NCBI RefSeq assembly: GCF_029626175.1
Contig: NZ_JARUBM010000002.1
Coordinates: 5,473,001 to 5,537,000 of the forward strand
Direction: 5' to 3'
Length of the DNA stretch: 64,000 nt
Source of the DNA: Micromonospora sp. WMMD1082
Lineage (GTDB): Bacteria; Actinomycetota; Actinomycetes; Mycobacteriales; Micromonosporaceae
The notes beneath the pieces were generated by a model. That model was not told where the DNA came from and searched no databases. It was given only the letters and a program-made list of their open reading frames with translations. The translations under genes were made by a program, and so were the position numbers. Within the stretch, counting starts at the first letter, position 1. Every line of letters begins with the position of its first letter. Shown here piece by piece: positions 28,064-47,314 of the stretch.

Positions 28064-28538
28064 TCACGGCTTGCGGGCCACGGCACCGTACGCGTCGATG
28101 GCCTGGGCGTCCGGGTCGTTCGGGCGCCACAGCGGGATCGGCACGAGCCCGGGCTCCACCAGCGTCAGCCCGTCGAAGCAGCTGGCGAGCTGCGCCGGAC
28201 TGCGCAGAATGTACGGAACGCCGCCGCTCTGGGCCAGCCGCTCGGCACCCGAGACCACCGCCAGGCTGGTGTCGGTGCCGTCCCACAGCACCAGGTGACT
28301 GCCGGAGGCGGTGGCGTCCATGACCCGCGCCACGATGGAGCGGACCACGTCCAGGTCGGGCTCGTAGCCCAGCACGCCCATGAACATGACGGCGATGGGC
28401 TGGTCGAAGTCCAGCGTCTCCGCCGCCTCCGCGAGGATCTTCTCCGGGTCGTGGTAGTCGGCGGGTACGTAGGTGGTGACCCCCTCGGAGGTCGTGCTCG
28501 ACAGCAGGGCCCGGGCGTGTACGAGCACCATCGGATCG
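28064..28538 (-). pseudogene. SAM methyltransferase (DUF574 type), C-terminal half, cut by the island
   Basis: Only the second half of a DUF574-type SAM methyltransferase remains. It begins at the DPMVLVHARALL segment that follows strand 2 and continues through TTYVPADYHDPEKIL and PIAVMFMGVLGYE to YGAVARKP and a TGA stop. The SAM-binding N-terminal half is 18 kb away at 46,987-47,314. Joining the halves at GATCG gives the canonical RIVYVDNDPMVLVHARALL with no gained or lost codon. The frame runs open upstream to 28615 but encodes island and IS sequence there. Non-functional unless the island excises. Confidence 0.9.
28534..28538. repeat. Left junction direct repeat GATCG
   Basis: GATCG here and at 46,987-46,991 flank the island. 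It is either the duplicated target or the core shared by the element and the methyltransferase gene. Confidence 0.7.
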
Positions 28539-28594
28539 ATAGATGTCGGGTAGTGTGCACATGTGGTTGGGTCCTCTCCTGGAAGGGGAGTGTG

Positions 28595-28602
28595 TCGATT
28601 TC
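28595..28602. repeat. ISL3 target-site duplication, left copy
   Basis: TCGATTTC occurs here and, identically, at 30231-30238 on the other side of the ISL3-family element, the 8-bp duplication expected for this family. Confidence 0.95.
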
Positions 28603-30230
28603 GGCTCTGTCTCACATTCGGTGGTGACCGAAGGTAATCGATGTCGTTGAGGTCATGTGTGCAAGATCGATGATCTGACGAAGATGGTGTTCTCGGGGTT
28701 GTCCCCGCTGGTGATCGATGACGTCACGGACGAGGGCGAGCGGATTCTGGTGCGGGCTCGGACTCCTGAAGCGACGGTGGCGTGTCCGGGCTGCAAGGTG
28801 GTGACGGGCCGGGTGCACGGGTATCACCAGCGGACTCTGGCGGATGTGCCGGTCGATGCCCGGCCGGTGGTGCTGCGGGTACGAGTGCGCCGTCTGGTGT
28901 GCCCGACGCAGGGCTGCCGTCGCACGTTCCGGGAGCAGCTTCCGGGAGTTCTGGAGCGTTACCAGCGTCGCACGTCCCGGTTGATTTCGCAGGTGGCTGC
29001 GGTCGTGCGTCAGCTGGCCGGCCGGGCCGGTGCTCGCCTGATGTCGGTCCTGGCGATGGTCGTCATGTCCCGGCACACTGCCCTGCGGGCGCTGCTGCGT
29101 ATTCCGTTGCCGCAGCGGCGGGTGCCCCGCGTGCTCGGGGTCGACGACTTCGCGTTGTGTCGTCGTCGCCGTTACGCCACCGTCCTGATCGACGCGGTCA
29201 CCCGTGAGCGCATCGATGTGCTGCCCGACCGCAAGGCCCACACGTTGGAGACGTGGCTGTGTGAGCATCCCGGTGTCGAGATAGTGTGCCGGGACTCCTC
29301 CGGCGCCTACGCCGAAGCGGTCCGCCGCGCCCTACCCCAGGCGGTGCAGGTCGCCGATCGCTGGCACCTGTGGCACAACCTCGCCGAAGCCGTCCGCAAA
29401 GAAGTCACCGCACACAGCACGTGCTGGGCCACCACCGGCCTACCGCCCCAGGACGGCATCCGGGCCGTGACCACCCGGCAGCGGTGGCAGCAGGTCCACG
29501 ATCTGCTCGACAAGGGCGTCGGCCTACTCGAATGCGCCCGCCGCCTCAACCTCGGCCTCAACACCATCAAACGCTACGCCCGCATCAGCCAACCCGAACG
29601 TCTGGTCCGCGCACCCCAGTACCGGCCCACCCTCGTCGACCCCTACCGCGCCCACCTACGCCAACGCCGCCAACAGGACCCCGCCGTCGGCGCCACCCAA
29701 CTCCTCGCCGAGATCAGGGAACTGGGCTACACCGGCAGCCTCAACCTGCTCTACCGCTACATCACCCAAGGCCGCGTCGAAGCCGACCGCCCAGCCCTGT
29801 CACCCCGACGCCTCACCCGCTACCTCCTGACCCCACCCGATCAGCTCACAGACCACCAACGGTCGCTCGTCGACGCCCTCACCGCCGCCTGCCCGGAGAT
29901 GACCACGCTGACCGGCTTCATCGGCTCGTTCGCCAGCCTCCTCACACCCGCAGCCGGCAACGACCACCGTCTCGACACATGGATCACCGAGGTCACAACA
30001 ACGGACCTGCCCCACCTACACACCTTCACCCGCGGCCTCGGCCTGGACCGCGACGCCGTCAACGCCGCCCTGACAACCCCCTTCCACAACGGCGGCACCG
30101 AAGGCGTCAACACCAAAACCAAATTGATCAAGCGGCAAATGTACGGACGCGCCGGGTTCGACCTTCTACGACACCGAATCCTGCTCGGCTAACCGGCACC
30201 CTCCGTCACCACCGAATGTGAGACAGAGCC
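28603..30230 (+). mobile_element. ISL3-family insertion sequence, complete (1628 bp)
   Basis: The ends are perfect 26-bp inverted repeats: 28603-28628 begins GGCTCTGTCTCACATTCGGT, and 30205-30230 is its exact reverse complement. An 8-bp target duplication TCGATTTC flanks it. One full-length transposase gene fills the element. The identical ends and duplication suggest recent insertion. The target was the tip of the neighbouring IS256-family element, six bases into its terminal repeat. Confidence 0.97.
28657..30192 (+). CDS. ISL3-family transposase
   Basis: A 511-residue intact transposase. The N-terminal zinc-finger-like part has CPGCKVVTGRVHGYHQRTL and RLVCPTQGCRRTF. The DDE catalytic domain has GVDDFALCRRRRYATVL (first Asp), VADRWHLWHNLAEAV (second Asp) and the Glu in GTEGVNTKTKLIKRQMYGRA near the C-terminus. 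An HTH-like segment follows GVGLLECARRLNLGLNTIKR. It starts at GTG 28657. No frameshift or stop is present, so the element should be able to move. Confidence 0.96.
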   Translation: MCKIDDLTKMVFSGLSPLVIDDVTDEGERILVRARTPEATVACPGCKVVTGRVHGYHQRTLADVPVDARPVVLRVRVRRLVCPTQGCRRTFREQLPGVLERYQRRTSRLISQVAAVVRQLAGRAGARLMSVLAMVVMSRHTALRALLRIPLPQRRVPRVLGVDDFALCRRRRYATVLIDAVTRERIDVLPDRKAHTLETWLCEHPGVEIVCRDSSGAYAEAVRRALPQAVQVADRWHLWHNLAEAVRKEVTAHSTCWATTGLPPQDGIRAVTTRQRWQQVHDLLDKGVGLLECARRLNLGLNTIKRYARISQPERLVRAPQYRPTLVDPYRAHLRQRRQQDPAVGATQLLAEIRELGYTGSLNLLYRYITQGRVEADRPALSPRRLTRYLLTPPDQLTDHQRSLVDALTAACPEMTTLTGFIGSFASLLTPAAGNDHRLDTWITEVTTTDLPHLHTFTRGLGLDRDAVNAALTTPFHNGGTEGVNTKTKLIKRQMYGRAGFDLLRHRILLG

Positions 30231-30238
30231 TCGATTTC
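30205..30238. repeat. ISL3 right inverted repeat plus right target duplication
   Basis: The inverted repeat covers 30205-30230 and the duplicated target TCGATTTC covers 30231-30238. The last six bases of the duplicate are also the first six of the IS256-family terminal repeat. Confidence 0.95.
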
Positions 30239-30269
30239 CGTGTTTGGGCCTGTGGTGTGATCGATGCTG

Positions 30270-31932
30270 TTAGATGGTGATCCGGTCGCCGTAGGCGAGG
30301 ATCAGGGCGTTGAGGGTCTTGGCCCAACCGTAGACCCTGCCGGTGATGCTCCCGCCGCCTCTACGTTTCTGCTGGACGACGAGGTAGAGGACCTTCATCG
30401 CGGCCTGCTCGGTCGGGAAGTGCCCGCGCCTGCGGGCGGCCTGCCGGAACCGGGCGTTCAAACTTTCGATGATGTTGGTGGTGTAGAGGACTTTGCGGAC
30501 CTCGTGGTCGTAGTTCAGGAACGGCACGAACTGTGGCCAGGAGGTCCGCCAGAGCCGGATGACGGCGGGGTACTGGTCACCGAACTGCGTGGCGAACTCC
30601 TCGAAGCGGGCCTCGGCGGCGGCGACGGTGGGGGCGGTGTAGATGTCCCGCAGTGCGGGGGTGATCTTCTGCCAGTCCTTGCGATTCGTGTACCGCAGGC
30701 TGGCCCGCACCAAGTGGACGACGCACTGCTGGTGCACCGCGAGGGGCCAGACCTGCTCGATGGCGTCGGTCATGCCCTTCAGCCCGTCGGAGCAGACCAT
30801 GAACACGTCCTCGACGCCTCGGTTACGTAGTTCGGTGAGGTAGCTGTCGGGGTACAGGTTCAAGTGCACAGGCGCGTACGGCTGAATGTGCAGAGTTTGC
30901 CGTACCCGCGGATCCCAGAAGATCATTCAGGCCATCGACGTTCATCGAGCGCGACCGCTGACCCCGTTTCATGCAGTCCATCTGCGGCGTGGAGCGTGTC
31001 CGCATGGACAAGCTCGCCTGATCCGCCCGAGAGCCGGTGAGCCTGTTGCGGCAAATCGAGACCAAGCCGACCCGCACCGCAGCCGCGCAGCGGCGAGGAG
31101 GGGAAGCGGCGCGGTAGCGCCTTTCTGGGCCACGCGGTTGCGACGGACAGGCACTGCGTCTGCCGCATCCTCGATCTTGAGCAGCGACCTTTGCAAGATC
31201 AGCCGTACGTAGCTCTGCACTCCAACGAGTACCCCGACAGTAGCCGGCCCACTGTTTGGCGCCTTCACCGCCGGTGCCGGCCCACATACCGAGCACGTCG
31301 CGTTCCCCGTCGAGGCTGATGCCGACCACGACGTAGACGGGCCGGTTCGCGACCTGCCCCTGGCGGATCTTCATCACCAGGGCGTCGATGAACACCACCG
31401 GATAGATCCGGTCCAGCGGCCGCTGCCGCCACGCCTCCATCTCGGCCAGGACACTGTCGGTGACCCGGCTGATCAACTCCCGGGACACATCGGCCTCATA
31501 CACATCCGCCAGATGCGCCGAGATCTCCCCGGTCGTTAACCCTTTCGCATACAGCGACAGGATCGCCTCGTTGAACCCGTCCAACCGGCGAACATGCTTG
31601 GGCACGATCTGCGGGGTGAACGATCCGGCCCGATCCCGCGGCACCTGGATCCGCACCGGCCCGACATCGGTCTGCATCGTCTTGGTTCCGTGACCATTAC
31701 GCACGTTGGCCCGCCGGCCGGTCGCCTCGTCGACACCGGCCTCGTCGAGATGCGCATCCAGCTCCGCATCCAACGCTGATTCGAGCACGGTACGAGTGAT
31801 CCCCGCCAGGAGCCCACCCGGCCCCACCAGAGACACCCCGTCGGCCTTGGCCCGCTCCACCAACTGCTGAGCGAACTCCACCTCCGCCGCCGACGGCTCC
31901 GGAAGCTGAACAGCGTTCTTCTTGACTGCCAT
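30270..31932 (-). pseudogene. IS256-family transposase interrupted by a 397-bp insert
   Basis: The N-terminal part (31932 to 31241) runs from MAVKKNAVQLPEPS through VFIDALVMKIRQG (first Asp) to GEGAKQWAGY. The C-terminal part (30843 to 30270) resumes LTELRNRGVEDVF, with MVCSDGLKGM (second Asp) and TTNIIESLNARFR (Glu). Removing 30844-31240 with one TAG copy restores KQWAGYLTELRN in frame. The ATG at 31932 has GGGAAGGA seven bases upstream. With the insert the reading frame runs into unrelated sequence, so no active transposase is made. Confidence 0.9.
30844..31240. mobile_element. 397-bp MITE-like element with 42-bp imperfect terminal inverted repeats
   Basis: The left end 30844-30885 and the complement of the right end 31199-31240 match at 34 of 42 positions. 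Both begin CTGTCGGGGTAC and end GTACGGCTGA. The trinucleotide TAG directly precedes the left end and directly follows the right end, consistent with a 3-bp target duplication. Excision restores the IS256 transposase frame exactly. No credible gene lies inside. It is probably a non-autonomous element mobilised by an unknown transposase; I cannot name the parent family. Confidence 0.85.
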
Positions 31933-32071
31933 GACGTGGTCCTTCCCGGACAGGATCAACGTCCTGTCCAACGGACCACACCCAGGTCAAACACGGAAAT
32001 CTACGCAGTCCCGTGCAGTCCCATCCCTTCCAAACCTGGGGCTTCGGTCTGGGGACCCGCTAGCGGGAACC

Positions 32072-33094
32072 TCAGCTCGCTGGTTGTCGAGGCTGCGGAG
32101 GGGACATCCGGTTTGGCAGCAGGAGTGCTGCGGCGAGGGGAGTTTGCTGATAGAGGACTTCTCGGCCGCGGCGTTGTGCGGTGACGAGTCCTGCGTCGCG
32201 GAGGACGGTGAGGTGTTGCGAGACGGTGGCGGGTGCCAGGCCGATTCGTTGGGCGAGGCTGTTGGTGGTGCTGGGGATGTGGGTCTCGGCCAGCACGGAG
32301 GCGCGTCCGGTGCCGAGGAGTCGAGTGATTGCTGAGTTTTGTATGGATCGTTCCCAGAGTCGTCCTACGCCGAGCATCGGGTAGACGAGGGCTGGTGGTG
32401 CGGTCGAGCTGCTGTCGGTGGGGCCGATGCCGAGGTTGGGCCAGCCGAAGGCGGTCGGGACGAGAACGAGTCCACGGCCGCGTAGGTCGACGGTGTTGGG
32501 GTTCAGCCCGGTGAGGTGCAGTGCGTCGTGGTGCCATTCGGCTCGTGGGTGCAGGTTCGCGAAGAGTCCTTCCATGCCGGCGTCGGCCAGGTGCCGGGCT
32601 CGGGTGGTGATGTCCGCGTCGAGCAGGCCCCGAATCTGATCCCATCTGGGGGCGATCAGGGTCTGCCAGGCCAGGCGTTGTTGCGCAGCAAGCATGTCGC
32701 GGGTCTTCGCGGGGTCGTCGGTGAGGGCTCGGCGCAGATCTGCCGGTATCGCACGCCGGTCGAGGCGACGGATATGCGCAGTGATTTCTGCGGCGACAGT
32801 GCGGGGATCGGTCGCCTGGACCTGGGCGAGGTCGTCGTCAATAGTGGTCAGCGGGCTGGTCGGGGTAGGCCAGAGGAAATCCGGCCCGTATCCCTTCGTG
32901 GGCGTGGCGAGGTTCAGCAGCTTCAGGTCGACCTCGGCGGCGACGGGTTGGATGTCGCGTAGCCATGGCAGGTACCAGCCGTGGCGACGTGGGTCCTTGA
33001 GCACCAGCAGCGCCGACATGGTTTCCTGCAGCGGCGATATCGCGAATCGGCACCTGGCCGCGTCACCGGGACCGAACCTCAACACAAGCGTCAC
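32072..33094 (-). CDS. ArsR-type HTH regulator with DUF5937 N-terminal domain
   Basis: A 340-residue regulator. The first two-thirds form a DUF5937-like domain (LRFGPGDAARCRFAISPLQE, then DPRRHGWYLPWL and WHHDALHLTG). A C-terminal winged helix follows: NSLAQRIGLAPATVSQHLTV, LRDAGLVTAQRRGREVLYQQ, near residues 265-320. The start is GTG 33094. It is divergent from an MFS exporter with an 80-base gap, the standard arrangement of a local repressor and its exporter. Ligand unknown. Confidence 0.88.
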   Translation of the reverse strand: MTLVLRFGPGDAARCRFAISPLQETMSALLVLKDPRRHGWYLPWLRDIQPVAAEVDLKLLNLATPTKGYGPDFLWPTPTSPLTTIDDDLAQVQATDPRTVAAEITAHIRRLDRRAIPADLRRALTDDPAKTRDMLAAQQRLAWQTLIAPRWDQIRGLLDADITTRARHLADAGMEGLFANLHPRAEWHHDALHLTGLNPNTVDLRGRGLVLVPTAFGWPNLGIGPTDSSSTAPPALVYPMLGVGRLWERSIQNSAITRLLGTGRASVLAETHIPSTTNSLAQRIGLAPATVSQHLTVLRDAGLVTAQRRGREVLYQQTPLAAALLLPNRMSPPQPRQPAS

Positions 33095-33173
33095 GCGACC
33101 ACGATGACACGCGCCGATTCGGCGTGCGCCGAATCGGCGCGGCCGGGACGGCGGTAGCGCAATCCTGACGGCC

Positions 33174-34424
33174 ATGACGCAAGTGACACCGCCTGTCGCG
33201 GAGCCTGCCCCCCGAGCCCGCCTGCTGCGCGGGAACCCTGCCTTCCGCGTGCTGTGCATGTCGCGGGCGGTGTCGTTCATCGGCGACGGGATCACGCTGA
33301 CGGCGCTCGTGCTTCTCGTCGCTCCACGCGACGGGTCGGCCGGCGTAGGCATGCTCCTGCTGGCGAACGCTTTACCGCGCTTCGGTGGGACGCTGGCCGG
33401 AGTGCTCGCCGACCGAATCCAGACCCGCCGGTTGATGGTGGCCTGCGATCTGGCCCAAGCACTGGTCATCGCCACAATCGCCGTCACCTTGCCGCCATTG
33501 CCGGTACTGGTCCCGCTCGTCGCGATCGCCGGCGTTGTGGCCACGATCCGGAATCCGGCCGGGCGCAGCCTGATCCCGGTCCTGGTCGCCCCGTCCGACC
33601 GCACTGCGGCAAACGCCCTGTTCGGGATGTCCCGCACCCTGCAACTGGCCATCGGCCCCGCCCTGGGCGGCCTGCTCACAACCGGGCCCGGCGGACTCCA
33701 CACCGCCCTGGCAATCGACGCCGCGACCTTCCTCGCCTCCGCGCTGCTACTCACCCGGCTCCCCGCCATCACACCCGCCCGCGACCCCAACGCAACCACC
33801 GGCATCTGGGCTGATGCCGCAGCCGGTATCCACTACGTCGCGACGCACCGGCGTGTCCGCATCCTCGTCCTCACCCTGTTCGTCGTGGTGGCCTTCGCCG
33901 CCGTGGACAACGTGGCCCTGGTGTTCCTCACCAGCGATGACCTCGACGCCGGACCCGCCGCGTATGGCTTAGCGGCCAGCGCGTTCGGCGCAGGAATGCT
34001 GCTGGCATCCCTCGCGTGTATCCGACTCGCCCGCGGCCGTTCGCCCGCGGCGCTGCTGATCGTCGCGATCGCGGCCACGGGAATAGGCATTCTGGTCACA
34101 GGCGCAGCACCCGTTCTCGCCGTCGTCATGGCGGCACAACTGATCGCTGGCGCGGGCAACGCCGTGGAGAACATCGGCTATGACACGATCATTCAGAATC
34201 TTGTGCCCCGCCCGTTCCTGGGCCGGGTCTTCGGCACCCTCGGAACCGCCGCCCAACTGGGAGCCGGCCTCGCCTACGCAGCCGCCGGACTGCTGGTCGA
34301 CCTCGTCGGCGCGCGTACCACCTTCATGCTCGCCGGCATCGGCACACTAGCTGTCCTACCCATCCTCATCCACACATTGCGTGACAAAGCGCCCCACGAT
34401 GCCACGGTGTCCGTTGACCGTTGA
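33174..34424 (+). CDS. MFS transporter (MefA/drug-exporter type)
   Basis: A 416-residue major facilitator with twelve predicted helices. The cytoplasmic loop 2-3 motif appears as GTLAGVLADRIQTRRLMV near residue 70, and NPAGRSLIPVLV near 130 marks the helix 4-5 loop of the macrolide-efflux/TMR subfamily. ENIGYDTIIQNLVPRPFLGR near 325 is typical of the same group. ATG 33174 is used. It probably exports a small hydrophobic molecule under control of the divergent ArsR-type regulator. It could serve self-resistance to a product made nearby, but that is speculation. Confidence 0.88.
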   Translation: MTQVTPPVAEPAPRARLLRGNPAFRVLCMSRAVSFIGDGITLTALVLLVAPRDGSAGVGMLLLANALPRFGGTLAGVLADRIQTRRLMVACDLAQALVIATIAVTLPPLPVLVPLVAIAGVVATIRNPAGRSLIPVLVAPSDRTAANALFGMSRTLQLAIGPALGGLLTTGPGGLHTALAIDAATFLASALLLTRLPAITPARDPNATTGIWADAAAGIHYVATHRRVRILVLTLFVVVAFAAVDNVALVFLTSDDLDAGPAAYGLAASAFGAGMLLASLACIRLARGRSPAALLIVAIAATGIGILVTGAAPVLAVVMAAQLIAGAGNAVENIGYDTIIQNLVPRPFLGRVFGTLGTAAQLGAGLAYAAAGLLVDLVGARTTFMLAGIGTLAVLPILIHTLRDKAPHDATVSVDR

Positions 34425-34747: not shown

Positions 34748-34761
34748 GTCTGCCGAGTGCG

Positions 34762-34806: not shown

Positions 34807-34861
34807 GTAGCAAGTCCAGCCCTTGCGGTACTCGATTCCGAATCATCGGGAGACTCTCGGC

Positions 34862-36022
34862 ATGAGCACTAGCGCGTCGGTTGATAATGGCTTGATTGAG
34901 CAAGGTGGGCCAGACGAGCACGTCTGGCAAGGCGTCTCACTAATGCTTGATCAGTATCTTCGCGTCAGACACGATGATCAGGTGCTCGTTCTTTATGCAC
35001 GCAACGCGCGACGGCCTGCTGCTTGGGTCGCCGCCGAGCTAAATATCCGTGAAGTTCCTACGGTTCTCATGGATCTGGATACGCTCTCCGACGCGACGAT
35101 CACGACCTTCGCGGACAAGCTCAGAAAATCGCTTGATCCAAAGAAGATAGCCGCCCGCCTTCTAGTCCTCTGTATCGAGTATGACGTCGTTACGCCTTCG
35201 CCGTGGATCCGTCGAGCCCTAGAACCGTTCTCTGACGCCAAGATCGAGACGTTCCGGACGATCATGACCGGCGAAGAGTTTTTCAGGCAGGGCGTTACGA
35301 CACCACCGGGCACTCTGAACAACATCAACGCTGGGCTCCTACAGGTACTGAGATCCGCCGAGAAATTCAAGGTCAGGACAACCTCGGGATCCGAACTGGA
35401 CATCACCCTCGACCCCAGCCGCTATCGCTGGGTGAGTAACCGTGGAATCCCGCGAGAGGGAGCCTTCGTGCTTCTCCCGGCCGGCGAAGTAGCCACCTTT
35501 CCCGCCCATATTAGCGGCAGGTTCGTCGCGGACGGCGCATTCAACTCCACTGCACATACGAAGCTTGACGCAAGACTCGAAAATCATCCTGTGACGTTCG
35601 AGATCGAGAATGGCGTCATGATGAACTATCATTGCGAAAATGCATCGGTAAGAAAGCTGATCGAGCGATGCTTGCGCCTTCCCAACGCGGACCGGGTCGG
35701 CGAGCTTGGTTTCGGCACCAACATCGGGATTCAGCAGTTCATTCCGTTGAACTCTCACTTGAATGAGAGATTCCCGGGCCTCCATATTGGCTTCGGTCAG
35801 AGTAATCAGGTAAAGGGCCAGCTTTACTCCTGTGACGTGCACATAGACTTTATCGCATCCGACTGCACGATCGAGATCCAAGGCAATCCTCCGCTCAACA
35901 GCAAAGAGTTCAAAAACCTTACAGGCCAGCACCCAGCGATTGAAGCAGGCGTGTTCGACGAGGACCTTGATGGCGACTGCTGTGGTCTCTTTTCCGCTTA
36001 TGACAGTACGCAGTGCCAGTAA
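34862..36022 (+). CDS. M29 aminopeptidase-like metalloprotein
   Basis: A 386-residue protein matching the M29 (aminopeptidase T) / NicX-like fold. The N-terminal domain has YLRVRHDDQVLVLYARNAR. The C-terminal metal domain keeps the expected ligands in order: Glu in LLPAGEVATFPA (about residue 218), Glu in VGELGFGTNIG (about 281), His in GLHIGFGQ (about 309), and His/Asp in SCDVHIDFIA (about 333). ATG 34862 follows GGGAG. Codon use is lower in GC than surrounding genes, a sign of transfer. It could process the small peptide upstream or act on a small aromatic compound. Confidence 0.65.
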   Translation: MSTSASVDNGLIEQGGPDEHVWQGVSLMLDQYLRVRHDDQVLVLYARNARRPAAWVAAELNIREVPTVLMDLDTLSDATITTFADKLRKSLDPKKIAARLLVLCIEYDVVTPSPWIRRALEPFSDAKIETFRTIMTGEEFFRQGVTTPPGTLNNINAGLLQVLRSAEKFKVRTTSGSELDITLDPSRYRWVSNRGIPREGAFVLLPAGEVATFPAHISGRFVADGAFNSTAHTKLDARLENHPVTFEIENGVMMNYHCENASVRKLIERCLRLPNADRVGELGFGTNIGIQQFIPLNSHLNERFPGLHIGFGQSNQVKGQLYSCDVHIDFIASDCTIEIQGNPPLNSKEFKNLTGQHPAIEAGVFDEDLDGDCCGLFSAYDSTQCQ

Positions 36023-37794: not shown

Positions 37795-37805
37795 GCCCGC
37801 AGAGG

Positions 37806-39208: not shown

Positions 39209-39243
39209 AGCCCTTCCGGAAGCCTCTTGCCTCTGATTGATGC

Positions 39244-39289: not shown

Positions 39290-39302
39290 ACCCTAGCGCC
39301 GC

Positions 39303-40076
39303 TCAGCCCTGGGCAGGGGTGAGCACGGCGTCCGTGTTGGCGGGCGAGGCGACCGTGCCGCCGGGCGGGCAGCAGGCCGTGTCGGTGTCGGTGGCGAGGA
39401 CATCCCACGCGGCCCGGTCGATCGCGTCGGCGACGCGAAAGGTGCCCTCCCAGGTGTAACGGTCGGTGTGCACGGCAGCCGTCAGGCCGACTGCCAGACA
39501 ACGGGCCAGGGCGCGGCGGGCGACATCGGCCGCGCACGCCGGGCAGGTGGGCACCGGCTCCGGGACCGGTTCCAGCGGCATGTTCAGGTCCGCCCCGGTC
39601 GCGCTGGCTTCCGAGGCCGTGTCGACCATGACCGCTACGCCGCGTTGCTTGACCGCCCGGTTCGCCCAGGCGGACAGCACCTCGGCCGCCCCGCGCAGTG
39701 GCACCCCGGAGAGGATGTTCATGCGGGTCAGGTCGTCACTGAGGCGGTGTCCGGCCAGGATGACCCCTAGTCGGCGGGCACCGGTCAACTCCCGGTCAGT
39801 CAGCCTGAGCAGGTCCGGTACCTCTGCCGCATCCTCGATCACGACCGTGCGGAACCCGATCGACAGCGTGTCATCGGCGATCAGATGCGCCGCGCCGTGC
39901 TTGCGGACCCGCAGGTACACCGCCGCCGAGGCGACCGGCAACCCTGCATCCTCCGGTCGGCCGGTCCATTCCAGCGTGAAGGCGGTGAGCATGTCCCAAT
40001 GCTGGCCGAAGGGGCGCTGCTCGGCCCCGAACGGTGTTTCCGGCCATTGCAGGTTGGTGAACTCACGCACGGGCAT
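39303..40076 (-). CDS. Unknown protein, distant fold relative of the nuclease-like neighbour
   Basis: A 257-residue protein without a recognised family. Its order of segments echoes the downstream nuclease-like protein: MLTAFTLEWTGR, then RLGVILAGHRLSDDLTRMN, then VAVMVDTASEAS, compared with DVEW, GHQLCSDL and VVDTRFD. PTCPACAADVARRALARC near residue 180 adds a CxxC. The start overlaps the radical SAM gene by 14 bases (40063-40076), so the two are translated together. This may be a degenerate RNase-H-like partner; the relation needs structural comparison. Confidence 0.45.
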   Translation of the reverse strand: MPVREFTNLQWPETPFGAEQRPFGQHWDMLTAFTLEWTGRPEDAGLPVASAAVYLRVRKHGAAHLIADDTLSIGFRTVVIEDAAEVPDLLRLTDRELTGARRLGVILAGHRLSDDLTRMNILSGVPLRGAAEVLSAWANRAVKQRGVAVMVDTASEASATGADLNMPLEPVPEPVPTCPACAADVARRALARCLAVGLTAAVHTDRYTWEGTFRVADAIDRAAWDVLATDTDTACCPPGGTVASPANTDAVLTPAQG

Positions 40077-41070
40077 GCCCTTCTGCGGGTGGGGCGGTGC
40101 CGGCGTTGGCGGCCGTGCGGATGCTCTTGCCGAGGTACTTGGCGAAGTGGTTTCGCTTGAACCGGTAGCGCTTCCAGATCTCCGTCACCGGCTCGGTGAG
40201 CACGTTGCCGAGGGGTTCCAGCAGGTCCGGAGCGTCGTACACGGGCCACGCGCTGGCCTTGCCGGTCACTTCCACGAGGATCATGTGACCCTCGGTTTCC
40301 GGCGTCCAGCAGGTCATGCGCAGCGCGGGCCGCCAGTCGTGCATCGACCGCGCCTCCATGAGCCGGTCGAACGCCCGCCCCGCCTCATCGATGCTGATGA
40401 ACTCGTTTGCCTCCAACCCGAGGGCGTTGCCCTTACGCAGCGGCAGGATCAGCTTCAGCTTGCCCGCGCCGATCACGTCGGCGATCTGGTACGTGAACGG
40501 AAGCGCGTGCAGCGTCGAGCGGTACACAACCGCCGACAACGACAGCGACAACCCCGCGTCCATAAACGCCCGCACCCCGGACATCACCTGGTCGTAGTCA
40601 CCACGCACCCGGTTGGTCGTGGCGCGTGGCCCCTCCAACCCGACGTTGACAAACGCCACCTTGCCCACCATCGACTTCGCGTGCTGCAACCCTCGGGTGG
40701 CGTTCGTCGGGATACCAAGGATGAAGTCCTGGCTGTACATGTCCACGATCTCGCCGAAGTCCCTGCGCAGCAACGGCTCCCCGCCGGACAGGAACACCCG
40801 GCCCACACCGGCCAGGTTGGCGCGGATCGTGTCCAACTCCGCCAACGTCGGGTCGGGAAGCTGCAACGTCTCCGAGCAGAACGAGCAGTCGAAGTTGCAC
40901 CGCTTGGTGATCTGAAGAATGACCGACAGCGGCACCGTCGCCGCCTCGGTAAGCTCCTCGATGCTCGCCGTGCCGGTCACGGCGAAGTGGTGCCCGGCGG
41001 TGAACGCCACCGGCCCGGTCGCCTGCGGAGGCGACGCGGGAGGGACGGTTGGCATACCCAGCATGGTCAT
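40063..41070 (-). CDS. Radical SAM protein
   Basis: A 335-residue radical SAM enzyme. The [4Fe-4S] motif is QITKRCNFDCSFCSETLQLP (CxxxCxxC) near residue 57. The SAM-binding GGE motif appears as RVFLSGGEPLLRRDFGEI near 95. The C-terminal part carries MTCWTPETEGHMILVEV and LGNVLTEPVTEIW, a SPASM/twitch-like position but without the cysteine cluster, so no auxiliary cluster is expected. ATG 41070 is preceded by AGGGAG. The overlapping gene, P-loop kinase and Nudix hydrolase suggest nucleotide or peptide modification; the substrate is unknown. Confidence 0.88.
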   Translation of the reverse strand: MTMLGMPTVPPASPPQATGPVAFTAGHHFAVTGTASIEELTEAATVPLSVILQITKRCNFDCSFCSETLQLPDPTLAELDTIRANLAGVGRVFLSGGEPLLRRDFGEIVDMYSQDFILGIPTNATRGLQHAKSMVGKVAFVNVGLEGPRATTNRVRGDYDQVMSGVRAFMDAGLSLSLSAVVYRSTLHALPFTYQIADVIGAGKLKLILPLRKGNALGLEANEFISIDEAGRAFDRLMEARSMHDWRPALRMTCWTPETEGHMILVEVTGKASAWPVYDAPDLLEPLGNVLTEPVTEIWKRYRFKRNHFAKYLGKSIRTAANAGTAPPAEGHARA

Positions 41071-41285
41071 GGTCAATGTCTCCCTTGCTCCAAGGGTGGT
41101 CGGGACAGCGCCCGACCGGACCGCAAAAGGCGTGAGTCGATCGGCGAGAAAGTCACATCCGTTGCCGCGCACGAGACACCGCGACTCCCGGGGGGCCTCG
41201 CTCCCGGGGCACCGGGCGTCCCGGCTCCCGGCTCACCGCCGGCCCCGCGCTTCCTCGCGCCGCCCCGGCCAGTGCCCACGCGCGC

Positions 41286-41687
41286 TCATGCATCGCATCG
41301 GGGTGTGCGCCGTGGCGGATCATCGTGCTCCCGCTCGTATAGCCAGCCCTCGGCGTCCAACGGCGCAAGACGCCCGCCGACCGCGTAGCCGACGTGCTCC
41401 GGTTGCGCCGGCCCGTGGTCCTGTTCGGTCGCCGGAACGGGGCCGGGTTGCCGTGCCTGATCGGCTACCGGTCCGGCGGGTGTGGGGAGAGCGCGTCGGC
41501 TGTCATACCAGTGGGGGTCTTCCCCGGCCGCCGCGATGACCGATGCGGCGAACGCCCGCACAGGGCACGGGGTCGGTCTGCCGCATCTCGCGCACGCCTC
41601 GGCCGTGGTGCCGTAGTGACGCTGGTACAGCTCGATCGCGGTGACGTGGGTCAGGGTGCCGCGCAGACTGGGAATCGGTCGATGCAT
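41286..41687 (-). CDS. Hypothetical protein with a Cys cluster
   Basis: A 133-residue protein: VTAIELYQRHYGTTAEACAR leads into a CxxCxxxxxC cluster (CARCGRPTPC, residues 32-41), then a Pro-rich disordered tail. AGAGGGG precedes ATG 41687. The cluster could bind zinc. Proteins of this type often accompany XRE-regulated genes on actinobacterial elements; this is from general memory. No function assigned. The 215 bases to the radical SAM gene hold no clear gene. Confidence 0.55.
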   Translation of the reverse strand: MHRPIPSLRGTLTHVTAIELYQRHYGTTAEACARCGRPTPCPVRAFAASVIAAAGEDPHWYDSRRALPTPAGPVADQARQPGPVPATEQDHGPAQPEHVGYAVGGRLAPLDAEGWLYEREHDDPPRRTPRCDA

Positions 41688-41720
41688 TGCGGTCCCCTCT
41701 TCCGTCTCGGCCCGTGGTGG

Positions 41721-42494
41721 TCAGGGTGTCGGTGGTGTCTGGTCCTCGTGAGCCATCGACGTGCCGGTGGACCTACCTGCCTTTGGTCGGTCGTCCTGGC
41801 GGTGAGGAGGGTCGTGAGGGTTGTCGAGAAGTAGCCGGAAGCGGGCCTTGGAGTCGGTGTCGGCGAGGGTGAGGGCTTGGTCCAACACCGACTGCGCCGC
41901 GAGCGTCGGGGTTGCGGGGGTGGTCCGGTGCTCCCAGGCAGTGATGGCTGCCGGGGTCAGGCCGAGGTGTTCGGCGAACGCGCGCACGCTCATCCGTAGT
42001 GCTTCGCGCAAGGCGTGGATCTCGCGTCTGGTCCACCGGCCGACAACGGTCGGCCCGCACCCTTCGCACTGAGTTGGGGAGGCGGTACAGGTTGAGGTGA
42101 GTGGCGCCGGCTGCGTAGTGGGCAACTGGCGTTCCTGGTCGCGGGCCAGTTCGGTCTGGGCGTGGAAGTCGCGCATGAGTGCGTGTGCCTGGTCGTAGAC
42201 GGCCAGCAGTGCTCCGTGTGCGCCGAGGGTGGCGTCCGCGTTTTGCCAGAAGCGGCGGGTGGTGTTGTCTCGGCCGCTCTCGACGTTGGCGATTTGGCTG
42301 CGGGAGTAGAGGATGCGTGCGGCGAGGTCGACCTGTGTCAGCCCGGCGGCGGTGCGCCAGTGGGCCAGGTGTCGGCCGAGGTCCTTGCGCGCGTCAGCCA
42401 CCTGAGCGGGGGTGATTCCGCCCGCCGTGCTGATTCGGCGCGGTGCGGTCGGAATGTGCCGACGCTGGGGCCGTGTAGGCGGTGTAGGGGTCAT
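41721..42494 (-). CDS. Double-HTH XRE-family regulator
   Basis: A 257-residue regulator with two helix-turn-helix domains. The first (about 35-90) has HWRTAAGLTQVDLAARILYS, SRSQIANVESGR. The second (about 155-205) has EIHALREALRMSVRAFAEHL, GLTPAAITAWEHR. Between them is a CEGCG motif. ATG 42494 overlaps the upstream regulator's TGA (ATGA). Two HTHs in one chain could allow binding of paired half-sites without a dimer. It probably regulates the downstream radical SAM group or the whole island segment. Confidence 0.8.
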   Translation of the reverse strand: MTPTPPTRPQRRHIPTAPRRISTAGGITPAQVADARKDLGRHLAHWRTAAGLTQVDLAARILYSRSQIANVESGRDNTTRRFWQNADATLGAHGALLAVYDQAHALMRDFHAQTELARDQERQLPTTQPAPLTSTCTASPTQCEGCGPTVVGRWTRREIHALREALRMSVRAFAEHLGLTPAAITAWEHRTTPATPTLAAQSVLDQALTLADTDSKARFRLLLDNPHDPPHRQDDRPKAGRSTGTSMAHEDQTPPTP

Positions 42495-43165
42495 CGTGAC
42501 TGCCCCCGCTGCACGATCGAGTACACCCGGGCTCCACCGGCCACCAACGGCGCATCGCCCACGGCCGAAGTGACTTCCGCAGACACGGCATCAGCGGGGT
42601 CGATCAGCACTCGGACCCGCCCGGCCACGATCGCGACATGGCCGGGCGGCACGGCGTCGTGGCACACGACGGTGGCCGCAGCCTTCCCGTGCACGCTGAT
42701 CTGCACCATCGCCGTTTCCGTAGTCATGGCCAACGGCTCGCCGACATTCGGCCCCGCAAGGGTGGCTGCTGGAGGCAGGGCGACAGTCGCCAGCGTCGCC
42801 GGGCCGACATCGGATACCGCCACCGGAGATGGCTCCAGGAGTGGGGGCGGCTCGGCGGAAGCGACGTCGGGATCGTCGGCGTGGCCCTGGATGATGAAGA
42901 AGCCGAGTTCGGCGTCCGTGGCCTTGTCCAACACCGCGCGCAGCGCTGTTCGGTAGTGCGCGGACGGCCAGCGGGTCTGGCCGCGCTCCAGGTTGCCGAT
43001 GTAGTGGCCCGCGATGGCGAAGCGTCGACCGAAGTGCTCGTACAGGTAGGCGTTGACCGCGTCGGCCAACTCCTGGCGTGACAACGGCCGACCCGAGCCC
43101 GTGGGAGACCGCAGTGCCAGTCGTGCTGCCCGCAGCAACTCGTTCGGTCCCGGTTGATACGCCAT
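42491..43165 (-). CDS. XRE-like HTH regulator
   Basis: A 224-residue protein with an N-terminal HTH (residues 25-75: GRPLSRQELADAVNAYLYEH, GHYIGNLERGQTRWPSAHYR). A Pro/Ala-rich linker and a C-terminal beta-rich segment follow, GHVAIVAGRVRVLIDPADAV. GARVYSIVQRGQSR ends the protein. The start is ATG 43165. It overlaps the double-HTH gene by four bases, so the two regulators are made together. Ligand and target unknown. Confidence 0.75.
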   Translation of the reverse strand: MAYQPGPNELLRAARLALRSPTGSGRPLSRQELADAVNAYLYEHFGRRFAIAGHYIGNLERGQTRWPSAHYRTALRAVLDKATDAELGFFIIQGHADDPDVASAEPPPLLEPSPVAVSDVGPATLATVALPPAATLAGPNVGEPLAMTTETAMVQISVHGKAAATVVCHDAVPPGHVAIVAGRVRVLIDPADAVSAEVTSAVGDAPLVAGGARVYSIVQRGQSR

Positions 43166-43341
43166 GAAGGATGTTCCGTTCCTTGTTCGGTGATTGTTGG
43201 GGCAGAAGCGACGGACGGGCGGGTGGTTCGACGGGTGCGACGACCGTGCGAAGCTGGACCTCGGCCCCGACCTACCCAGGGTTTCTGTGCGCTGGGCGCA
43301 ACCCGCGACTTCGGTGCTCGGCAGCCGTCACGGTCGGCATG

Positions 43342-43593
43342 TCAGCTCGCCGTCCTCGTTGACAGCCAACCGAAGTCACCCTGCTTGGTGCCCATCAGTT
43401 CCGGCCGTGTCGCGCCCGGCTGTCGTCGGGGCAGCCGCGCCGACAGCAGGAACACCTTGGCTGCCGCTTCGTGCTTCGCGCACGGTCCGAGTACCTTGCA
43501 CGCCACACATAGCCCGTCACCGCTGGACACCGCGTGTCGGTCCAACATCGCTTGCGCATGGTCGATCTGCTGACCGCCGTGATAGGTAGCCAT
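43342..43593 (-). CDS. Small Cys-containing protein
   Basis: An 83-residue protein with a CxxCxxxxxC cluster (CVACKVLGPC, residues 29-38) after HAQAMLDRHAVSSGDGL. The cluster has the same spacing as the one in the 133-residue protein at 41286-41687. The start ATG 43593 lies one base after the TGA of the 45-residue gene. Possibly a zinc-binding accessory. Function unknown. Confidence 0.55.
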   Translation of the reverse strand: MATYHGGQQIDHAQAMLDRHAVSSGDGLCVACKVLGPCAKHEAAAKVFLLSARLPRRQPGATRPELMGTKQGDFGWLSTRTAS

Positions 43594-43594
43594 G

Positions 43595-43732
43595 TCACGA
43601 GCCCTCGTGCTCGTGGCGGGGCAGGCGAATCTGACCATCGATCGGCCCCACCTGTATGAGCAGCCTGCCGGTGCTGTGCTTGCAGGCAGGCCCGTGGACC
43701 TCGGTCACGTCGCTGACCATGAACGTGATCAT
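43595..43732 (-). CDS. Small 45-residue protein
   Basis: Starts MITFMVSDVTEVHGPACKHS and ends PRHEHEGS, with a single cysteine flanked by histidine. Its ATG overlaps the stop of the upstream 47-residue gene (ATGA), and its stop is one base from the next ATG. The coupling on both sides is the main support. Function unknown. Confidence 0.5.
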   Translation of the reverse strand: MITFMVSDVTEVHGPACKHSTGRLLIQVGPIDGQIRLPRHEHEGS

Positions 43733-43872
43733 CGGCGGTGCCCGGCAATCTTGTGGAGAAGATCGCTGGTCGTCGCGCCGCAGCGCGGACACCACCGACT
43801 CTTGACCTTGAATGACCAGAGCCCTGCGAGGTAGCCCGCCAGCAACGCGGCGAGCGTGGCTCCGAGCAACAT
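43729..43872 (-). CDS. Small 47-residue membrane protein with a CxxC
   Basis: The sequence opens MLLGATLAALLAGYLAGLW, one transmembrane helix, then SFKVKSRWCPRCGATTSDLL with a half zinc ribbon, and ends HKIAGHRR. First gene of the minus-strand group. The next two genes are linked by a 4-base overlap and a 1-base gap. The promoter should lie in 43,873-44,132 with the divergent XRE gene. Function unknown. Confidence 0.5.
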   Translation of the reverse strand: MLLGATLAALLAGYLAGLWSFKVKSRWCPRCGATTSDLLHKIAGHRR

Positions 43873-44034
43873 GCAGCATCAACCCCCTTCGCAGATCAGG
43901 GGGCCAGAGCGGACGGGCTTGCAGCTGAACCGCCCCGGCCTGCCGTCTGGGCCAGATCAAGACAAGTCTGCGTGAAACGCCCAACTGTGCCGTGAGAGCC
44001 CAACGGGATCAGGATGGCACGCACATCCGTAGGA

Positions 44035-44063
44035 TACAAGTTTGTGGATCACGCAAACTTGTA
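44035..44063. promoter_or_regulatory. Palindromic operator between divergent island operons
   Basis: TACAAGTTTG (44035-44044) and CAAACTTGTA (44054-44063) are perfect 10-base inverted arms with a nine-base spacer. ACAAGTTTG-type half-sites are, from memory, seen upstream of XRE/DUF397 loci. The site could control both the rightward XRE-DUF397 pair and the leftward small-protein operon. Confidence 0.75.
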
Positions 44064-44132
44064 GGACACAGAACCGGGGATCGGGACCAGTCATGATCAC
44101 CTGGTTGCACCCCACCGATCGTGTAGCGGACG

Positions 44133-44996
44133 ATGGACAGCGTGACGACGAGGCATGGGCCTACGCTGCGTGCGCAGTGGTTGGGTCAGCAGATCAAAGA
44201 AATCCGCGAAGGTGCCGGAATCACCCTGAAGCAGGCGGGCGAGTATCTGGAGCGTGACCCGTCGACCGTGAGCCGGTTCGAGTCAGCCGAGTACCCCATC
44301 CGGCGTGCCGATCTACTCGCCCTGCTGGACTTCTACTCGGTCAGCGACCAACGACGCCGCGCGGGACTGCTGACCTTGCGGGAGGAGGTGTGGCAGAAGG
44401 GCTGGTGGGACGGCTTCGCCGATGCGGTGGATCGACGGTTCATCGACTACGTGTGGCTGGAGTCCCGCGCCCAGGCGATCCACTCGTTCGATGGCACCCT
44501 CCTGCCTGGCTTGCTCCAGACCAGTCCGTACGCCGAGGCGGCGATTCGTGCAGCCGATCCGGACCTTGGAGACGAGCAGGTCATGCGGGCGGTTGAGCTT
44601 CGGATCATGCGTCAGCAAGTGCTCACCGGCGACGAGCCGACGCAGCTTCACGCGATCCTCGATGAGGCCCTGTTGCTGCGCACGGCCCTCAAGCCCGAGG
44701 CGATGCGTGATCAGCTTCGACACCTCAGCGAGTGCGCCCACAGGCCGAACATCGAGATCCGGGTACTACCATTCAAAGCGGGTGCACACGCCAGCCCGGC
44801 GGGCGCGTTCAAGGTGTTCACGATGGTGGAGCCGTACCCCGATGTCGCGTACACCGAGACGCTCGGCGGCGCGATCTACGTCGAGACCCCAGGCGCTGAG
44901 CGGTTCGTCCAGACGTACGATCGGTTGCAGCGTGTGACCTTGACACCGGAAGAGTCAGCCGAGCGCATCTCGGCAGCGACAGAGGAGATAACGTGA
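44133..44996 (+). CDS. XRE-family regulator with DUF5753 domain
   Basis: A 287-residue regulator. The N-terminal HTH is LGQQIKEIREGAGITLKQAG, EYLERDPSTVSRFESAEY (residues 17-55). The DUF5753 domain has EVWQKGWWDGFADAVDRRFI near 88, LLPGLLQTSPYAEAAIRA near 122, and MVEPYPDVAYTETLGGAIYV near 233. ATG 44133; GTG 44142 is possible. Its stop overlaps the DUF397 start by four bases. Such pairs act as regulator and small partner in actinomycete development and silent clusters (WhiJ/AbaA-like). Confidence 0.9.
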   Translation: MDSVTTRHGPTLRAQWLGQQIKEIREGAGITLKQAGEYLERDPSTVSRFESAEYPIRRADLLALLDFYSVSDQRRRAGLLTLREEVWQKGWWDGFADAVDRRFIDYVWLESRAQAIHSFDGTLLPGLLQTSPYAEAAIRAADPDLGDEQVMRAVELRIMRQQVLTGDEPTQLHAILDEALLLRTALKPEAMRDQLRHLSECAHRPNIEIRVLPFKAGAHASPAGAFKVFTMVEPYPDVAYTETLGGAIYVETPGAERFVQTYDRLQRVTLTPEESAERISAATEEIT

Positions 44997-45238
44997 AGGC
45001 AGCAGAGACGCACGCGCCGGGCCGTCCGGACCTAGCGGGCGTCGCCTGGCACATCAGCACCAAGAGTGACAACGGTGGCGCGAGCTGCGTCGAGGCTGGG
45101 CCGCTCGCCGATGGAAGCGGGCGAGTCGCCGTGCGGCACAGCCACCACCCCGACGGCTCCGTGATCATTTACACCCGGGCCGAGTGGGAAGCATTCGTTG
45201 GCGGGGTCCGCGAGGGCGAGTTCGACTTCTTCGACTAG
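44993..45238 (+). CDS. DUF397 domain protein
   Basis: An 81-residue protein with the DUF397 core VAWHISTKSDNGGASCVEAG, VAVRHSHHPDGSVIIYTRAE and WEAFVGGVREGEFDF. GTG 44993 lies in the GTGA overlap with the DUF5753 regulator. Known DUF397 partners modulate or counteract the adjacent XRE protein. Confidence 0.92.
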   Translation: MKAAETHAPGRPDLAGVAWHISTKSDNGGASCVEAGPLADGSGRVAVRHSHHPDGSVIIYTRAEWEAFVGGVREGEFDFFD

Positions 45239-45360
45239 GCACACGCCGTGACCGGCTGAGACGACAGGACGGACGGGCGACTCCCATCGCATAGGGGGTC
45301 GCTGTTTGCTATCTACCTGCTGCTACCAACAGTTATGTCGTCGTCGCAAGAGCATCAAGG

Positions 45361-45397
45361 CAAGTGGGGTACCCCTGATCCAGGGGTACCCCACTTG
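45361..45397. terminator. Bidirectional terminator
   Basis: CAAGTGGGGTACCCCTG (45361-45377) and CAGGGGTACCCCACTTG (45381-45397) form a perfect 17-bp stem with a three-base loop in the 318-base gap between convergent genes. The rest of the gap has no gene that I can support. Confidence 0.85.
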
Positions 45398-45556
45398 ATC
45401 GATGTCTCACGGTCGGCTGGAGGTTATCCGGGAGGTCTCGGCGAGCGAACTCCCCGCCGCCGACGGGCCGCCCGCATCATCAGCTCCGGTCCGGAACAGG
45501 TGCGGACACCCGCCGACATTCGGTCGACGAAGGTTGACCCCGCCCCACTACTCCGC

Positions 45557-46387
45557 TCAGGGTCCTTCCTTCGTGTTCCTGGTCGCTCCTGCGGGCTGGC
45601 CGTTGACGCCGGAAGTCAACGGAACCTGCTCTGCCCTCAGAGCTTTCAGCAGCAGTGACGCGCGTTCGTTGGATACGCCGAGCCCGTTGTCGCGCATCGC
45701 GTCGACCAACCGGTCACGTGACAGGGGACGTCCCGTAGCCGCAAGCGCCGCGCGAGCCGCCCGTGCGGCCGGAAGCAGGTGCGCCACCGGACGCACGTCC
45801 AACGGCGCGGGGGCGGACGCCGTGTCGCTCGACCGCCCCGGCATGGACCCGGTGCCCTCTGCCGTCCTTCCGGTCGCGGACGGGCCTTGGAGCCCGATCA
45901 AGTCGTCCGCGGCCGGACCGGCGAGCGGTCCGCTGTCCGGGCCAGTCTGCGGGACCGTCCCGGGGACGACAGGACGATCGGCGGCCGTCCGCTGATCGTC
46001 TTCGCCGTGGTCGATCATGCTGAACAGCAGCTTGACCGAGACGAGCATCGACAGCGCCGGCCAGCCGGCCAGGACTTTGCCGATCACGCTGTCACCGCCG
46101 ACCGCGACGTTCGCGGCCAGGCTCGCGGCGGTGCCGACCACCAACGCGACCCACGGCAACCAACCCGTCCGCCGTCCCGCACGCCGCTGCACCACCATGT
46201 ACAACGCGGCGACGATCTCCAACCCGTCCACACTGATCGGGAACGCGAACGCCTTCCACCCATCCTGATCGTGTTCGGTCGCCAACTCGTGCATGTGCGC
46301 GAACGAGATCGTTCCCGCGACGACGGCCAACCCGGCGACGAACACCACGGTCACGGCCGTCAAGATCCGATCCGTACGGCTCCTCAC
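45557..46387 (-). CDS. DUF2637 membrane protein (Spd-like)
   Basis: A 276-residue protein with four transmembrane segments in the first 150 residues (ILTAVTVVFVAGLAVVAGTI, FPISVDGLEIVAALYMVV, LPWVALVVGTAASLAANVAV, VLAGWPALSMLVSVKLLFSM). The conserved SVDGLE lies in helix 2. The C-terminal half is cytosolic, with an HTH-like SRDRLVDAMRDNGLGVSNER. GTG 46387 overlaps the previous stop (GTGA). DUF2637 proteins are typical of actinobacterial integrative elements and plasmids, where Spd proteins help intramycelial spread; no transfer gene accompanies it here. Confidence 0.85.
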   Translation of the reverse strand: MRSRTDRILTAVTVVFVAGLAVVAGTISFAHMHELATEHDQDGWKAFAFPISVDGLEIVAALYMVVQRRAGRRTGWLPWVALVVGTAASLAANVAVGGDSVIGKVLAGWPALSMLVSVKLLFSMIDHGEDDQRTAADRPVVPGTVPQTGPDSGPLAGPAADDLIGLQGPSATGRTAEGTGSMPGRSSDTASAPAPLDVRPVAHLLPAARAARAALAATGRPLSRDRLVDAMRDNGLGVSNERASLLLKALRAEQVPLTSGVNGQPAGATRNTKEGP

Positions 46388-46758
46388 CACGACCACCCAC
46401 CATCGGCCTCGGCCTCGGTCGTGAGCAGCCGCAGCGCGGACAACACCTGGGATGCGTCCTGCGCCGCCATCGCGATCTCGGTATCGCCGTGCCGGATACG
46501 CAGGTAGGTGTCGCACGGCCACGGAGCGACAGCCTGCGTCAGAAACGCCTCGCCGGCCTGCGGCGAGAGGGCGATCACCGTGGTCAGGTCGAGGCGGATC
46601 GGCGCTGACCGGTGCTCACCGCTCCGAAACCCGTCAGCCTGACTCGCCGGATCGGCCGTACACCGCGAACGGTCACACCAGGCGGGATGACGCGGCTCGG
46701 CTGGGGTGCGGCGGCCCGCCGGCGTGGGTTGGCCTTCTGAACGCTGCGACCAACTCAT
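46384..46758 (-). CDS. DUF6907-like protein
   Basis: A 124-residue protein with HPAWCDRSRCTAD near residue 25 and a C-terminal alpha/beta part CDTYLRIRHGDTEIAMAAQD. This fits the DUF6907-like proteins that sit beside DUF2637 genes on actinobacterial elements; the family label is from memory. ATG 46758 follows GGAGG. Last island gene before the right junction, co-translated with the DUF2637 gene. Function unknown. Confidence 0.55.
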   Translation of the reverse strand: MSWSQRSEGQPTPAGRRTPAEPRHPAWCDRSRCTADPASQADGFRSGEHRSAPIRLDLTTVIALSPQAGEAFLTQAVAPWPCDTYLRIRHGDTEIAMAAQDASQVLSALRLLTTEAEADGGWSW

Positions 46759-46875
46759 CGGGCCACCTCCTCAAGGGAGGAAGGTGCCGCAGACGGTACG
46801 AACGCGGCGGCGACCGGGTCCACGATTCCTGGTCGTGTTGGGCCGCCACCGCCAACCGGTACCCAATCAAAACGG

Positions 46876-46903
46876 ACTACATGTGACGAAAATAGGGTGT
46901 CAA
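46876..46903 (-). promoter_or_regulatory. Possible promoter for the DUF6907-DUF2637 pair
   Basis: On the minus strand a perfect TTGACA (46898-46903) is followed after 16 bases by TGTAGT (46876-46881), 118 bases upstream of ATG 46758. It lies in the AT-richer last 230 bases of the island, which otherwise carry no gene. Confidence 0.4.
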
Positions 46904-46986
46904 ATGCCGGTATAGGGCTTGCCGGCCCTAGCCATGCATGGCAACTAGACGGTGAACGTTCGGGTGTGAACAACGCGGCTTGATAT

Positions 46987-47314
46987 GATCGTTGTCCACG
47001 TAGACGATCCGTGCCTCGGGCGCGACGCTCTGGGCGACCTCGTGAGTGTTCTGCATGGTGGGCAGGCCGGTGCCGATGTCCAGGAACTGCCGGATGCCCG
47101 CCTCGGCGGCCAGGTGGCGCACGGCACGGATGAGGAACCGGCGGGAGTGCCGCGCCATGAGGACGATCTCCGGGTAGACCTCGGCCACGGCGTCGCCGGC
47201 CGCCCGGTCGGACTGGAAGTTGTCCTTGCCGCCCATCCAGTAGTTCCAGATCCGCGCGGCGTGCGGCACCTCGGGCTGGAGCTTCGCGGTGAGTTCGGCA
47301 TCCGGGCTGGCCAT
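46987..47314 (-). pseudogene. SAM methyltransferase (DUF574 type), N-terminal half, cut by the island
   Basis: ATG 47314 opens MASPDAELTAKLQPEVPHAA. The DUF574 signature ARIWNYWMGGKDNFQSDRAA follows, with motif I RQFLDIGTGLPTMQNTHEVA and strand 2 EARIVYVDND, where the native sequence stops. Translation runs on through island DNA to a TGA at 46928, giving a 128-residue chimera that lacks half the fold. The matching C-terminal half is at 28,064-28,538. Both halves keep good codon structure, so the interruption looks recent. Confidence 0.92.

Follow-up and report, generated by a model that had tools for sequence, protein, structure and literature searches.

An 18-kb island in a Micromonospora methyltransferase gene is very probably the relic of an element integrated by a large serine recombinase

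Elements and prophages of the A118, Bxb1 and phiC31 type are integrated by large serine recombinases (LSRs) and insert in protein-coding genes. The actinomycete integrative and conjugative elements (AICEs), as described in the parts of PMC3218068 used here, mostly rely on tyrosine integrases and sit in tRNA genes, serine integrases being found in 19 of 144; that account also describes elements without tra or rep as remnants, and reports NUDIX and XRE genes in AICEs. In the LSR atlas of Durrant et al. 2022 (PMC10083194), according to the portion of the text drawn on, site-specific LSRs are grouped by the gene family that they disrupt. Here we analyse a stretch of 64,000 nucleotides from Micromonospora sp. 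WMMD1082 (contig NZ_JARUBM010000002.1, positions 5,473,001 to 5,537,000; hereafter the window), in which an island of some 18 kb splits a methyltransferase gene of the PF04672 family. This island is, with high probability, an LSR-inserted integrative element whose integrase was later lost at an insertion sequence (IS) of the IS256 family.

The pentanucleotide GATCG stands at both ends of the island, at 28534-28538 and 46987-46991. When the flanks are joined at this repeat, a single reading frame stays open on the minus strand, which reads ...IVYVDNDPMVLVHARALLSS... across the joint with codons neither gained nor lost. The joined protein of 265 aa matches PF04672 (Methyltransf_19) over positions 4-268 of the 268 of the profile (E 3.7e-94). 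An initial annotation, made from the sequence alone, had described one DUF574-type methyltransferase split by an island of about 18 kb and restored exactly at GATCG, and both its family assignment and its reconstruction are confirmed. The two halves lie in the same direction on the minus strand, the N-half on the right and the C-half on the left. The island itself extends from 28537 to 46989 (18,453 bp) and has a GC content of 0.661, against 0.725 and 0.726 in the flanks; no tRNA was found in the 64-kb window. The gene parts and attachment sites are the following:

28064..28534, minus strand: C-terminal half of the interrupted PF04672 methyltransferase gene (from the joining, the PF04672 match and uninterrupted relatives)
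28505..28566, plus strand: attL, with the attB half at 28505-28534, the crossover AT at 28535-28536 and the attP half at 28537-28566, GTCGGGTAGTGTGCACA lying at 28545; the exact cut is presumptive
46958..47019, plus strand: attR, with an attP half ending TTGATATG, the crossover AT at 46988-46989 and then the attB half
46990..47314, minus strand: N-terminal part of the split PF04672 methyltransferase gene, ATG at 47314 (from the joining and the PF04672 match)

The uninterrupted gene exists in relatives. When the joined 928-bp stretch was compared with 160 genomes of the same genus, the window's own included, all 160 gave some match, because related methyltransferase genes are common. Among the matches listed, a single uninterrupted BLAST match ran through the joint at 83-90% identity in 50 of the 160, the remaining genomes reaching at most 78%, except for the window's genome and that of a congener, G144, in both of which the gene is split. 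The joint of 30 uninterrupted genes that were fetched reads GGGTCGT in 29 and GGATCGT in one. The comparison with intact Micromonospora copies that had been proposed as a check thus bears out the predicted empty site up to one letter: the joint is present in relatives, with G instead of A at the crossover in 29 of the 30.

Insertion at this place has occurred more than once. In G144 this gene is likewise broken at that position, with its halves 103 kb apart, and both tips of the window's island are homologous to the tips found there (left, alignment 28055-28570; right, from 46948 onward). About 55 bp beyond the left junction of G144 starts a gene for a 485-aa serine recombinase, which has a PF00239 resolvase domain (E 2e-14) and the layout of an LSR. 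GGTC is the only stretch common to the G144 junctions; of the 5-bp repeat claimed for the window, GATCG at both ends therefore stands, and a constant 5-bp unit does not. A survey of loci of this LSR family gave 31 entries, or 24 distinct loci after the removal of repeats; L077, L078 and L082-L088 were excluded as repeats or end pieces. In 15 of the 24, to which the window is additional, a split PF04672 gene is abutted at the same motif with an attP arm between; in the Pseudofrankia genome G674, three insertions lie beside three different methyltransferase copies (L074, L095, L096). Recurrent, site-specific insertion at one attB is what characterizes LSR-integrated elements. In another genome of the genus, G025, the right tip lies inside an ABC-F-like gene (the translated flank was read by eye, without a family search) and the methyltransferase gene is intact; this locus (L064, C1:4.2316 Mb) is a 9-kb relic with about 64 bp of the host gene gone at the left junction, a further damaged copy in a different target. 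Apart from G144, the LSR elements seen with both ends span 6.5-14.5 kb, and the G144 insertion (C4:2367303-2470203) lies far above this range; it includes a second methyltransferase match, at 18.1-18.9 kb of the reversed stretch, and may be nested.

Relatives of the G144 recombinase were found at 12 loci in Paractinoplanes, Nonomuraea, Actinomadura, Pseudofrankia, Frankia, Asanoa, Actinoplanes and one metagenome assembly. At the level of genomes, the recombinase family turned up in one of the 160 from the genus, in four of 354 from the bacterial family, in eight of 345 from the Actinomadura order and in nine of 35 from the Frankia family; an order-wide sample of 397 genomes gave none, in a search run without a positive control. 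In the protein database, 481 recombinases reached E 1e-60 among 8000 candidates scored. Relatives were not found in the phage and plasmid collections, and none was encoded on the 126 IMG/VR stretches that matched a pattern. All seven recombinases scanned for domains carry PF00239, and five of the seven match Zn_ribbon_recom at E up to 1 (best 5.6e-5); the family profile matches the TP901-1 integrase, another solved integrase and TnpX weakly (E 0.0017-0.01).

The island's tips tie it to this family. The 17-mer GTCGGGTAGTNTGCACA of the left tip has five exact occurrences in 4 of 354 family genomes, with none for a reversed-pattern control among the matches listed; four of the five stand at recombinase genes (in G144, G545 and G573) and the fifth is the window, so the window's left tip matches the family attP arm. 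We then compared att sites across 11 elements, namely the window and the 10 of 12 sequences viewed that have both ends (L113 and L119 do not); ten of the 11 are in PF04672 genes and one, L126, is elsewhere. The attP arms form an imperfect inverted repeat, as in LSR elements, with a mean identity of 0.64 at the dinucleotide against 0.10-0.35 at 12 other axes, a peak that is partly circular since the dinucleotide had been set from the palindrome of G144 ahead of the comparison. What does not depend on this choice is that the palindrome axis falls inside the bases common to attL and attR, with the dinucleotide AT within GATCG here; the window's pentanucleotide would be this AT crossover plus a G and a CG present in both attB and attP. 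The centres of attL and attR agree in 10 of the 11 complete elements, the exception being L120 (GT / AT), which may reflect a mismatched event or a silent mutation. At L118, a second attR-like arm at 14309, about 1.8 kb inside the right end, possibly belongs to a tandem or earlier element.

What the island lacks is the recombinase. None of the 20 island open reading frames (ORFs) scanned with Pfam belongs to an integrase family, tblastn of the G144 recombinase against the window gave nothing significant (best E 1.1), and the window's genome has no family recombinase at E 1e-20, nor with the profile at 1e-40. An LSR gene next to one att site is found in the relatives and not in the window, and we therefore class the element as a relic. 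At the corresponding end the window has instead:

28567..28584, plus strand: likely leader remnant of the lost integrase gene (short and loosely aligned with the relatives' leaders)
28585..32012, unstranded: IS256-family element with ends GGGGAGTGTGTCGATTTCCGTG and GGAAATCTACGCAGTCCC, interrupted by an ISL3-family element and a 395-bp insert; its flanks show no target duplication
28603..30230, plus strand: ISL3-family element with inverted repeat GGCTCTGTCTCACATTCGG, in the left terminus of the IS256 element

The IS256 element, whose left end (about 28585) is backed by one other copy in the genome and whose right end (about 32012) by two, starts approximately where the relatives have the ribosome-binding site and start of the integrase, and since its flanks are not a target duplication they suggest a deletion starting at the IS. 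The ISL3 element has an 8-bp duplication, TCGATTTC, at 28595-28602 and 30231-30238. ISL3 sequence stands at an IS256 terminus in three copies of this genome (L129, L131 and window 28585-30238), as if ISL3 preferred that terminus. The insert at 30845-31239 lies in the IS256 transposase gene, has 11-bp ends TGTCGGGGTAC and GTACCCCGACA with GTAGC on both sides, folds better than all of 100 shuffles (z -4.4) and resembles a miniature inverted-repeat transposable element.

From these features the following history may be drawn. An LSR would have opened attB inside the YVDND(P) motif, in the codon for its second Asp, and attP at its central dinucleotide (AT), and strand exchange would have yielded attL and attR with no host bases lost. 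An IS256-family element would later have landed at the integrase leader, the integrase gene would then have been lost by deletion next to it, and the ISL3 insertion into the IS256 end would have come later still. The sequences compared themselves display its starting points, which are the uninterrupted site of the relatives, the att arms, the repeated use of one site, the recombinase gene that related elements have at this end, and the IS structure; the loss event, its order, the 2-bp cut and the immobility are presumed. As no family integrase was found in the genome, the element would be stranded and the methyltransferase would stay broken. The initial annotation had offered, among other readings, a remnant without an integrase inside, from which the IS elements of the left end had removed the integration module; the surviving attL arm, the IS256 element at the leader and the integrase searches all favour this one.

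Several observations weigh against integration by an LSR and later loss of the integrase. The lost integrase is itself unseen, its identity being suggested by the att arms and a short leader. Nine of the 24 LSR loci have no directly abutting split methyltransferase with the motif: at L100 the C-half is 259 bp away and the motif absent; L072, L097 and L099 have an attP arm and no adjacent methyltransferase match; L107-L109 have neither by the survey test; and the integrases of L081 and L094 are broken or partial. The window's attP palindrome (0.50) is tied for weakest of the 11, and the attB sites have no symmetry at the dinucleotide (0.28, the highest other axis giving 0.41). PF07508 was unmatched in the domain scan of the recombinases, and phmmer of a single recombinase against solved structures gave nothing at 1e-3. 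Finally, the window shares one unknown ORF with L071 and three ORFs with G144 and no other genes with LSR-bearing elements, so that recombination seems to have brought integration module and backbone into new combinations. The broken integrase of L081 sits between an N-half (1.4-1.7 kb upstream) and a C-half (7.7-8.1 kb downstream), neither directly abutting; this may also be an insertion in a methyltransferase gene.

Such differences in gene content, and the failure to find any recombinase coding trace in the window, would also suit a non-autonomous element with the family's attP arms that never encoded an integrase and owed its insertion to a recombinase supplied in trans. We consider this improbable: the left tip runs past attP into leader-like sequence and breaks off at an IS256 element that lacks a target duplication, which points to integrase loss, and in family genomes a recombinase gene accompanies each of the tip's four other copies. 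That the ends share 5 bp and form imperfect inverted repeats recalls a cut-and-paste (DDE) transposon which duplicated GATCG and lost its transposase, much as the initial annotation had suggested; this is highly improbable, since the shared stretch varies (GGTC in G144) and the relatives target one codon of one gene family with a serine recombinase beside the end. The only transposases among the 20 ORFs scanned are those of ISL3 and IS256, a duplication of constant length at varied sites, the mark of DDE transposons, was not observed, and the different stretch shared by the ends in relatives led us to reject a 5-bp target duplication. Two separate ancestral genes, or a rearrangement mimicking an insertion, have a vanishingly small probability: no support was found for either, the flanks are colinear in G144, and both are already refuted by the 50 genomes of the genus in which the gene is uninterrupted, 30 of which were read at the joint.

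The LSR relatives also bear on the direction of integration. Counting the window, the integrase end lies at the C-half in 11 insertions and at the N-half in five. A GT centre goes with the C-half (9/9) and AC with the N-half (3/3), whereas AT is divided two and two over four loci, the window included. In the Bxb1 and phiC31 work cited in PMC3783163, as reported in the part of that article used here, orientation is tied to the central dinucleotide. The natural pattern fits such a rule and does not alone prove it, because attB supplies the same letters; we did not use the association as proof, since the junction dinucleotide belongs also to attB and the outcome is in part predetermined. The existence of both orientations is informative, as is the agreement between attL and attR in all complete elements but one. 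On a tree of 18 recombinases (two rows of which are only 42% filled), N-side insertion needs three changes, all forced by well-supported branches and perhaps representing a single gain with two losses; as few changes sufficed in 35 of 500 label shuffles. We put forward, tentatively and with more doubt than conviction, that a single LSR lineage may use the conserved YVDND codons of PF04672 genes as multi-copy landing pads, that its polarity may have switched repeatedly through attP centres GT, palindromic AT and AC, and that the wobble base of the Asp codon may decide which elements land and in which direction, the window's AT being orientation-neutral.

The rest of the island consists of probable cargo and a backbone:

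32072..34424, unstranded: ArsR/DUF5937 ORF (minus) overlapping an MFS transporter ORF (plus), probable cargo
34823..36903, plus strand: two ORFs of low GC, the one unmatched to any family and the other a methyltransferase, probable cargo
37345..41172, minus strand: NUDIX, AAA_28 kinase-like, two unknown and radical SAM ORFs, probable cargo operon
41502..46870, unstranded: backbone with XRE regulator, unknown ORF, XRE/DUF5753, DUF397 and DUF2637, partly shared with G025 and a second place in the same genome

Around the two low-GC ORFs (34500-37000) GC falls to 0.56-0.60, perhaps through a separate later acquisition. The backbone (about 41.5-46.7 kb) is found again, in part, in G025 and has a sister at 7.317-7.322 Mb of the same genome (68-79% identity) that adjoins PCMT and ATP-grasp genes, neighbours reminiscent of graspetide clusters. 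This sister (L137, 4035-12301), in a setting like that of ribosomally synthesized and post-translationally modified peptides, has no family att tips in the 20 kb fetched. Gene content was viewed in three LSR elements: L116 has a coupling-protein-like ATPase, L071 has a Replic_Relax gene, and the 724-aa protein of L122 matched no Pfam family.

What looked like an integrase-less island with a 5-bp repeat can thus be read as a relic whose ends, attB and attP are known and for whose inactivation a likely route can be given. The serine-recombinase family, with its clear att sites, offers possible integration tools for actinomycetes, and its insertions are a natural data set for the evolution of integration polarity. 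Among the matches listed in the open-licence PMC literature, we found no description of PF04672/DUF574 genes as a serine-integrase target, and neither of the two papers there that mention DUF574 concerns integration, judged by title. The main text of PMC10083194 does not use the word methyltransferase, and this LSR family may be in its supplements; a legend to a Frankia element map in PMC3218068 names a gene MT_19, a putative S-adenosylmethionine-dependent methyltransferase, which from the legend could be target or cargo, so that an earlier sighting of such an insertion is possible.

The island resembles the described systems in several respects. (i) As in LSR elements and prophages of the A118, Bxb1 and phiC31 type, it is inserted in a protein gene, and its relatives carry the recombinase gene at one end; unlike them, it lacks the integrase, it occupies a motif found across a family of methyltransferase paralogues, and its relatives occur in both orientations. 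(ii) Its attP is pseudo-palindromic with the crossover at the central dinucleotide, as the part of PMC3783163 used here describes for A118. (iii) Unlike the AICEs, it has no Rep, FtsK/Tra or Int module among its 20 ORFs by Pfam; like them, as far as the parts of PMC3218068 used here describe them, it is actinobacterial, has NUDIX and XRE genes and is integrated site-specifically in the chromosome, and two of its relatives (L116, L071) carry a coupling-protein-like or Replic_Relax gene. The element is not the novel type that the initial annotation had envisaged: the serine recombinase of its relatives is encoded at precisely this end, and their insertions hit the same codon.

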